A stretch of 62,679 bases of DNA, taken from positions 34,129 through 96,807 of the forward strand of contig JAHEYU010000015.1 in the NCBI GenBank assembly GCA_023251435.1. Direction: 5' to 3'. Positions 33,475 through 33,876 of the stretch are shown here, piece by piece. Numbering within the stretch: position 1 is the first letter of the stretch; the number at the start of each line of letters is the position of its first letter. A program made the position numbers and the translations under genes. Under the pieces are notes generated by a model, which was not told the DNA's origin, did not search any database, and saw only the letters and a list, made by a program, of their open reading frames with translations. The DNA is from Bacteroidota bacterium. GTDB lineage: Bacteria; Bacteroidota; Bacteroidia; Bacteroidales; Prolixibacteraceae.

Positions 33475-33505
33475 TTTGTTAATGCCAAACAAACTGTTAC
33501 TTTTG
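33475..33505 (+). promoter_or_regulatory. Promoter of the tRNA-Lys array
   Basis: TTTG at 33475-33478, a 19-base spacer and TACTTTTG at 33498-33505 match the full Bacteroidota consensus (TTTG at -33, TAnnTTTG at -7). Transcription would start at about 33512, three bases before the first tRNA-like unit, so the whole array should be made as one precursor. Confidence 0.8.
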
Positions 33506-33514
33506 TCGCCGATT

Positions 33515-33587
33515 CGATTAGTAGCTCAGTTGGTAGAGCATCCCGATTTTGTCGGGAGGACCAAAAGACGATTAACGGTAGAAAAAA
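33515..33587 (+). pseudogene. tRNA-Lys(UUU)-like unit 1, T arm lost
   Basis: It has an acceptor-like CGATTAG, T8-A9, a D stem GCTC/GAGC and an anticodon stem TCCCG/CGGGA with loop ATTTTGT (UUU at 33548-33550). The T arm and 3' acceptor do not pair. It is the most diverged unit. Calling it a pseudogene is an inference from the structure. Confidence 0.6.
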
Positions 33588-33596
33588 TGTAATTTT

Positions 33597-33669
33597 CGGT
33601 CTATCGCTCAGTTGGTAGAGCATCCCGATTTTATCGGGAGGACCCAGAGACGATTCACAGAAGACAAAA
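33597..33669 (+). pseudogene. tRNA-Lys(UUU)-like unit 2, T arm lost
   Basis: It has acceptor CGGTCTA, the D arm GCTC/GAGC and anticodon arm TCCCG-ATTTTAT-CGGGA (UUU at 33630-33632). Positions 8-9 read TC instead of TA. The T region CAGAGACGATTCACAG cannot form the five-pair stem. Confidence 0.6.
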
Positions 33670-33678
33670 TAAAATATT

Positions 33679-33751
33679 CGGTCTGTAGCTCAGTTGGTAG
33701 AGCATCCCGATTTTATCGGGAGGACCCAGAGACGATTCACGGTAGACAAAA
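33679..33751 (+). pseudogene. tRNA-Lys(UUU)-like unit 3, T arm lost
   Basis: The acceptor CGGTCTG, TA at 8-9 and D arm are identical to the functional tRNA. The anticodon arm reads UUU (33712-33714). The 3' side (GGTAGACAA) still pairs with about five of seven acceptor bases if the T loop is one base short, but the T stem has only about three pairs. Confidence 0.6.
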
Positions 33752-33760
33752 TAAAATATT

Positions 33761-33833
33761 CGGTCTGTAGCTCAGTTGGTAGAGCAGCTGACTCTTAATC
33801 AGCGGGCCCAGGGTTCGAATCCCTGCAGACCGA
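33761..33833 (+). tRNA. tRNA-Lys (anticodon CUU)
   Basis: The cloverleaf is complete: acceptor CGGTCTG/CAGACCG, D arm GCTC/GAGC, anticodon stem GCTGA/TCAGC with loop CTCTTAA (anticodon CTT at 33794-33796), variable GGGCC, and T arm CAGGG-TTCGAAT-CCCTG, with discriminator A at 33833. The 3' CCA is not encoded. It is the last unit of the 82-bp array. Confidence 0.95.
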
Positions 33834-33836
33834 CAG

Positions 33837-33876
33837 AAAATGAGGCAATTACGAGTTTGTAATTGTCTCATTTTAT
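33837..33876 (+). terminator. Terminator after the tRNA array
   Basis: A 16-bp stem with one G-U pair (33837-33852 with 33859-33874) closes a 6-base loop. The 3' arm ends TTTT and continues AT-rich. It begins 3 bases after the tRNA end. Confidence 0.85.

Follow-up and report, generated by a model that had tools for sequence, protein, structure and literature searches.

A tandem array of tRNA-Lys(CUU) half copies in a Prolixibacteraceae genome, probably the footprint of tRNA-gene-splitting elements

The window analysed here, a stretch of 62,679 nucleotides from a Bacteroidota genome of the family Prolixibacteraceae (G000), carries a four-unit tandem array ending in an intact tRNA-Lys(CUU) gene, and this array is probably the footprint of mobile elements that split tRNA genes and are of the GIY-YIG homing-endonuclease type. 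On the best reading of the combined analyses, it would be a derivative, without a GIY-YIG gene, of elements that split and restore tRNA genes in the manner of SegB. The same split-gene anatomy is found beside other tRNA genes, with a two-sided rule as to which half is retained, recurrent palindromes and a link to GIY-YIG genes at many loci, while at tRNA-Asp an element is present in some genomes and absent from others, a few of which have matching flanks.

The array at tRNA-Lys(CUU) and its counterparts in relatives

The units of the array begin exactly 82 bp apart (Table 1), and TRF reported a period of 82 with 3.2 copies and a score of 448. ARAGORN, run over the whole window, called a single tRNA, the Lys(CUU) of the last unit, and a genome search using the array DNA found no second tRNA resembling it. 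The scores of units 1-3 with the Rfam tRNA model lie below its cut-off of 29 bits, so that they do not qualify as canonical tRNAs. An earlier note on this DNA, made from the letters alone, had described an 82-bp array of four units closed by a complete tRNA-Lys(CUU), and all of these measures agree that it is real.

Table 1. Features of the tRNA-Lys(CUU) array, in window positions.
Feature	Positions	Strand	Basis
Native promoter-like element of the tRNA-Lys(CUU) gene, TTTG-N19-TACTTTTG	33475..33505	+	sequence reading
Unit 1: 5' half 33515-33540, palindrome TCCCGATTTTGTCGGGA 33541-33557, degenerate tail	33515..33596	+	3/26 mismatches; Rfam 18.0 bits
Unit 2: 5' half 33597-33622, palindrome TCCCGATTTTATCGGGA 33623-33639, degenerate tail	33597..33678	+	2/26 mismatches; Rfam 19.0 bits
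Unit 3: 5' half 33679-33704, palindrome TCCCGATTTTATCGGGA 33705-33721, degenerate tail	33679..33760	+	0/26 mismatches; Rfam 25.3 bits
Intact tRNA-Lys(CUU)	33761..33834	+	ARAGORN; Rfam 74.2 bits; genome search
Intrinsic terminator: 16-bp stem 33837-33852/33859-33874, one G-U pair, 6-nt loop, then ATTTA	33837..33874	+	read from sequence

Each of the three incomplete units consists of 26 nt of the tRNA 5' half, a 17-nt palindrome and a degenerate tail. The palindrome occupies exactly the place of the 17-nt anticodon arm, the native stem being swapped for TCCCGA..TCGGGA around a loop that reads UUU, and unit 1 differs by one loop-side change. Neither the acceptor arm nor the T arm can form in these units, the latter as the earlier note had observed. 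That note took them to be tRNA-Lys(UUU)-like, and it suggested a search for an intact gene of this type, of which there are two elsewhere in the genome. The 5' halves, however, differ from the same genome's tRNA-Lys(UUU) at 6, 8 and 6 of 26 positions, against 3, 2 and 0 for tRNA-Lys(CUU), the latter mismatches decreasing towards the intact tRNA. Descent from tRNA-Lys(UUU) was rejected, UUU being found in the loop only. The proposal that the form without a T arm was amplified after the loss is accepted as regards expansion, but units 2 and 3 are not identical as had been stated, since they differ at 2 of 39 bases in the degenerate part and at 4 of 82 overall.

The promoter-like element ahead of unit 1 and the terminator stem behind unit 4 that the earlier note pointed out are both present (Table 1). 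Since the units sit between this native promoter and the terminator, they should be transcribed, and the promoter now lies some 250 bp from its tRNA. Just after the tRNA comes a 1189-aa ORF (34036-37605) that by eye resembles a sulfatase joined to a rhamnosidase-like portion; another large ORF lies behind it at 37641-39866. Elsewhere in the window, at 13657-16403, there are tandem repeats of 234-237 bp in up to 6.9 copies, perhaps within a gene for a repeat-rich protein.

Among the 29 loci obtained from relatives (61 genomes searched), ARAGORN found one tRNA-Lys(CUU) in 25 and none in 4, some of which are cut by a contig end. Of the 22 loci listed that lack units, 12 have the leader gttacttttgtcgccgatt directly against the intact tRNA, whereas it adjoins the first unit in the window and in G009, and, with one base different, in G011. 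As the leader meets the first unit instead of the intact tRNA, the gene appears to have been split from inside, the outermost unit marking the old position of the 5' half. A unit at three or fewer mismatches was found in 4 of 140 family genomes, namely G000 (three units), G009 (two), G011 (one) and G091 (one), the last belonging to a different genus from G000. In G000, G009 and G011 the 5' half and palindrome match each genome's own tRNA at 0.88 to 1.0, while the tails diverge. G009 has an additional half copy downstream of the tRNA, which retains the 3' half and terminator and has the arm TCCCGATTCTTCATCGGGA; terminator-like stems follow both the tRNA and this half copy in G009, and the tRNA in G001. 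According to the earlier note, absence of the units from relatives, or random substitution in the anticodon stems, would mark them as decayed pseudogenes if no RNA accumulated either. Relatives are indeed largely without them, but a kept 5' half and palindrome with a drifting remainder is unexpected under random decay.

No GIY-YIG gene was detected by HMM at the tRNA-Lys(CUU) loci fetched (L011-L040, L074, L095 and L096, with flanks of mostly about 1.5 kb). The array in the window is therefore linked to the elements described below by its architecture, as a derivative rather than a member of the homing elements.

Palindromic half copies beside other tRNA genes

BLAST searches in more distant genomes found the same structure at tRNA-Met, with three upstream copies in G036 and one on each side of the tRNA in G060. 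Within the order, a similar palindrome pattern occurs in 34 of 393 genomes, the reversed control giving 0 in every row. A scan of a contig collection for TAGAGCRTCCCGATN{1,7}ATCGGGA returned at least 116 stretches; among the matches listed, the titles are mostly Bacteroidota, and a few, mostly MAGs, are Ignavibacteria, Kiritimatiellae, Patescibacteria/Parcubacteria, Acidobacteria, Armatimonadetes, Planctomycetota, Dehalococcoidia and Bacilli. In G000 itself there are 33 palindromes of the form TCCCGATN{1,12}ATCGGGA (for example at L078, L083 and L086; reversed control 0), and three of them lie inside a MITE-like repeat with near-identical flanks.

When the palindrome was sought together with AGAGC[AG], 248 distinct matches were obtained, 181 of which have a same-strand tRNA within 2.5 kb. 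By one half, 150 of these matches (93 loci) resemble the neighbouring tRNA, and the half that is kept depends on the side. Upstream copies (n=84) have a mean identity of 0.95 in the 5' half and 0.45 in the 3' half, the 5' half being kept in 83, while downstream copies (n=66) have 0.91 in the 3' half and 0.62 in the 5' half, the 3' half being kept in 58 and the other 8 fitting better in the 5' half. Repeats of the same context were removed, and the neighbour was taken as the best-matching tRNA within 2.5 kb, a choice that inflates the identity of the better half while leaving the side rule unaffected. The isotypes involved are Met, Lys, Ala, Arg, Val, Thr, Gly, Pro, Asn and Ile. A further 67 of the 248 matches lack a same-strand tRNA in the available DNA up to 2.5 kb away, and 31 more are unlike their tRNA.

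Half copies with any arm were also collected (n=199, around 195 tRNAs), and TCCCGA or TCGGGA is present in 193 and another palindrome in 4 of the remaining 6, although the count of 193 is not independent because the loci had been found by the palindrome. The loop equals the neighbour's anticodon in 36 of 101 cases, where 14.1 were expected and 0 of 10000 permutations reached as high a number; with the anticodon thus inherited, the stem seems to have been changed around a kept loop. The gradient seen in the window, with the newest copy nearest the tRNA, is not general (of 19 arrays, 13 were equal, 4 for and 2 against).

Several observations concern individual loci. Half-copy matches to tRNA-Val lie to both sides of a single locus at L312 (G038:C3); there are 20 of them, and almost every one has a TTCCGTC..ACGGAA arm. 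At L106, L198 and L312, ARAGORN reports palindrome-bearing half copies as tRNA-Ser(GGA) or tRNA-Phe(AAA), giving falsely annotated tRNAs. Half-copy palindromes are also found in the T-loop or D-loop (L225, L113, L120, L195 and L204; L142; L345 and L346).

The points at which similarity to the tRNA ends are spread out. In 37 of 63 upstream copies they lie 4-9 bases before the end of the T-loop GTTC (15 at -6) and in 8 right after it, while 26 of 50 downstream copies retain 7-10 bases ahead of the arm. These ends were considered as marks of one cut point like that of SegB, which is not supported by so many positions.

A plain tandem duplication of the tRNA gene, with later decay of the upstream copies, is improbable as the origin of the array. 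The exact 82-bp period, the Rfam scores under the cut-off and the lack of units in most relatives would all suit it, but the 5' half and a near-perfect palindrome stay unchanged while only the remainder drifts, the pattern is mirrored upstream and downstream in 150 copies, and the same stem is found at many isotypes. The earlier note had asked whether a duplicated gene had decayed or a set of decoys or small RNAs had been retained. The evidence instead favours insertion footprints of tRNA-splitting elements, a reading that draws on how the half genes lie on either side of the tRNA, on the palindrome that keeps recurring, on linkage to GIY-YIG genes and on what relatives show.

GIY-YIG genes and the element at tRNA-Asp

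In many loci, the small ORF between a tRNA and its downstream half encodes a GIY-YIG domain. Three linked proteins of 81-91 aa were compared with PF01541, and all three scored above the curated cut-off of 22.6 bits (49.5, 56.8 and 52.4 bits). A custom HMM gave 76 distinct matches in the first set of loci, 49 with a same-strand tRNA at 250 bp or less; of 183 domains in a later set, 86 are tRNA-linked and 97 have no tRNA within 250 bp. Simple patterns for the catalytic motifs recovered GIY in 86, YIG in 84, R in 86 and E in 78 of the 86 linked domains. These lie after the tRNA in 69 cases, 45 of them starting 40-70 bp past it, and before the tRNA in 17. A closely trailing palindrome mostly begins 14-48 bp past the domain, and the stop codon of the GIY-YIG gene can be the TAG of the broken half's D-loop (L133). 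In a second layout, seen at L100 and L107, the gene lies between a palindrome-bearing 5' half and the tRNA.

The best solved relative of the protein at L133 is UPF0213 protein BH0048 (1zg2, E 3.7e-5), SLX1 reaching only E 0.46-0.79. Small GIY-YIG proteins of the UPF0213/YhbQ type are among the closest known systems; UPF0213 proteins are not known to play a part in tRNA biology and, to our knowledge, most small GIY-YIG proteins have no assigned function. Of the 119 genomes surveyed in the order, 113 have matches to PF01541, UvrC included, and 72 have at least two. At L294, L332 and L316 (G060:C20, G224:C19) there are tandem arrays of GIY-YIG genes at a spacing of 354-392 bp with tRNA 3' halves between them. 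L243 (G000:C25:8627-8854) is a GIY-YIG gene among several dispersed palindromes, with no tRNA in the fetched flank.

As the palindrome scan had itself sought TCCCG, the analysis was repeated from the GIY-YIG side without a palindrome condition, starting from a PF01541 search of the 119 order genomes. Among the matches listed, 90 loci were used (30 from the search and 60 fetched), leaving out nine small matches at eight places and those of the window's own genome. They hold 114 GIY-YIG matches, tandem and split frames being counted apart. For 34 of the 114 (31 loci), a same-strand tRNA lies at most 150 bp before the match or 60 bp behind it, although in 4 of these cases the ARAGORN call gives no isotype; an opposite-strand tRNA lies within 150 bp of none. 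In this set, 68 half copies were first tallied, and a miscalled tRNA-Phe in L312, which repeats some of them, was excluded from the palindrome test. A palindrome of at least 6 bp within 48 nt is present at 20 of the 25 tRNAs with half copies, against 2.7 expected from shuffles. The palindromes vary both in site (anticodon arm, D-loop, 3' of the anticodon) and in sequence, the best of each (n=20) opening with TCCCG in 6, CCTGC in 5, TCCGC in 3 and six other sequences once each. Palindromes in non-coding DNA are denser near GIY-YIG genes than far from them, both at tRNA-linked loci (2.11 vs 0.98 per kb, the far value from n=7) and at loci without a tRNA (2.58 vs 0.19 per kb, far n=2).

Linked isotypes cluster on the GIY-YIG tree, with 31 changes against 60.8 when shuffled (0 of 200 as low), and the seven Lys rows form one branch with a support of 94. 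The tree has 183 rows and few columns (77), many of its forks are open, and near relatives may add to the clustering by isotype. Host family requires 51 changes, a figure with more classes than isotype and no shuffle baseline.

Of the four PF01541 matches in G000, one starts 41 bp after tRNA-Asp. The order there is the tRNA, the 41-bp spacer, the GIY-YIG gene, a piece running from D-loop to anticodon, the palindrome TCTCGCTTTGAGGCGAGA and an intact 3' half. The locus was fetched from 19 of 23 searched genomes of the genus; a GIY-YIG gene is present in 5, G000 among them, and missing from the fetched flank in 13, while 1 ends too close. In G018, G020, G010 and G011, the flank after tRNA-Asp matches the flank that follows the 3' half copy in G000 (scores 121, 85, 67 and 54), and is unlike the sequence that follows the intact tRNA-Asp of G000. 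In all other genomes the scores are at most 21 and the flanks match neither of those in G000. Judged from sequence, the four element-less relatives place the insertion inside the tRNA-Asp gene, and the matching flanks mean that the broken half kept the native terminator, just as the broken half at tRNA-Lys kept the native promoter. Since G020 carries an upstream-type half copy with a D-loop palindrome, only three of the sites are plain empty ones. Presence and absence at a single site with recognisable empty sites, as expected of a homing endonuclease element, was thus observed at tRNA-Asp.

A model of tRNA-gene splitting and its meaning

In the most likely mechanism, a putative cut by the GIY-YIG enzyme in the middle of a tRNA gene would be followed by repair that yields an intact tRNA and a broken half. 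The element would thus open the gene centrally and leave the intact tRNA on one side and, on the other, the broken original half, which carries a palindrome, often TCCCG..CGGGA, within or close to its anticodon arm. Two forms may be distinguished. In the downstream form, as at tRNA-Asp, the intact tRNA is followed by a new terminator, the small GIY-YIG gene, the palindrome, and finally the 3' half and terminator of the old gene. The upstream form, that of the window, begins with the old promoter and 5' half, continues with the palindrome, a short tail and the intact tRNA, and may or may not include a GIY-YIG gene. The three tandem units of the window could have arisen by renewed events or by unequal recombination. 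We infer from the linkage that the GIY-YIG enzyme cuts tRNA genes and drives insertion, and the shared architecture argues that the array in the window descends from a GIY-YIG element.

The nearest known counterpart is SegB, a free-standing GIY-YIG homing endonuclease in the tRNA region of phages T4 and T6. SegB of T6 cuts within tRNA genes at the motif RAWTSGAAC without a favoured isotype, and tandem repeats of a tRNA and a shortened segB arise by homologous recombination (PMC13096335). By our own reading, this motif fits the T-loop read backwards. A GIY-YIG nuclease gene beside tRNA genes and tandem repeats are common to both systems, but SegB belongs to phages and the present elements are cellular, and half-tRNA copies with palindromic arms do not figure in the part of that account drawn on here (PMC13096335). 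Unlike SegB, the three proteins tested (81-91 aa) have little beyond the catalytic domain.

Integrative elements at tRNA genes likewise split the gene, restore an intact tRNA and leave a partial gene behind, as attL/attR fragments (PMC9897764, in the part used here). Remnants of integrase-driven genomic islands would share this logic, and such fragments are well known (PMC9897764), yet we give them an almost negligible chance of explaining the array. There is no island: the repeating unit is about 80-400 bp, and the palindrome starts lie 56, 138 and 220 bp from the tRNA start for the three units of the window, so that spacings are tens to hundreds of bases and not kilobases. The arms are replaced rather than shared and carry a palindrome, broken 5' and 3' halves can flank one tRNA, the linked gene is a GIY-YIG gene, and no integrase was seen by eye among the window ORFs near the array.

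The effect of half copies on the tRNA was examined by in silico folding of 38 loci. The mean pair probability of the tRNA fell from 0.725 alone to 0.409 with the upstream half copy, and to 0.312 when the native arm was restored in that copy, the actual arm being better in 24 and worse in 3 of the 38; for the tRNA-Lys(CUU) of the window the values are 0.52 alone and 0.43 with all units. These predictions suggest that an upstream half copy harms tRNA folding and that a native arm would harm it more. Such an effect could regulate the tRNA, and together with the position of the units between native promoter and terminator, where transcription is expected, it is what speaks for retained tRNA-like RNAs acting as decoys, processing substrates or an attenuator of tRNA-Lys expression. 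We nevertheless consider this very improbable, given the sporadic occurrence of the units (4 of 140 family genomes), the same structure at many isotypes and on both sides of the tRNA, and the impossibility of an acceptor or T arm.

The folding results also bear on the possibility that the palindrome is an insulating stem, the arm being recoded so that the half copy, transcribed together with the tRNA, no longer mispairs with it. The loss with the native arm and the anticodon kept in the loop (36 of 101 against 14.1) agree with it, but random stems (0.404) and shuffled arms (0.383) serve nearly as well as the actual palindrome (0.409), and palindromes are also found in downstream copies and at GIY-YIG loci without a tRNA. 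As any non-native arm serves the fold about equally, insulation explains neither the palindromes nor TCCCG, and was rejected as their sole cause. It is rather unlikely to be the reason for the palindrome, and it supplements the element reading without replacing it.

A bolder reading is that hairpins are what the GIY-YIG enzyme handles, and hence that the arm is palindromic. In REP/RAYT systems, dispersed short palindromes outnumber the enzyme genes, and the enzyme is a Y1 HUH transposase. There is a similar excess in G000, where 33 TCCCGAT..ATCGGGA palindromes (two being units 2 and 3 of the window) stand against 4 PF01541 matches, but the nuclease found nearby is GIY-YIG instead of a Y1 HUH transposase. 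It is conceivable, and we put it forward tentatively, that small GIY-YIG nucleases mobilise palindromic hairpins in Bacteroidota and some other phyla as a counterpart of REP/RAYT, tRNA genes being one favoured target because their central arm is a hairpin; the enzyme would exchange or insert a hairpin, split the gene and leave an intact copy. A search of the open-licence PMC literature found no paper joining GIY-YIG, REP and transposase. If this hairpin-mobilising reading is true, these would be the smallest tRNA-splitting elements, measuring about 0.35-0.4 kb when they carry the gene and, like those of the window, about 80 bp when they do not.

Among open-licence PMC papers, no description of such split-tRNA elements was found by title and the start of the abstract. 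Each ingredient is known, and it is the combination in cellular genomes that appears to be new. A class of tRNA 'pseudogenes' and miscalled tRNAs would be accounted for, and the SegB principle would be extended from phages to cellular genomes. The tight, oriented link to split tRNA genes gives small GIY-YIG proteins a testable role, tRNA-gene homing, and the loci described here suggest that essential tRNA genes survive repeated splitting.
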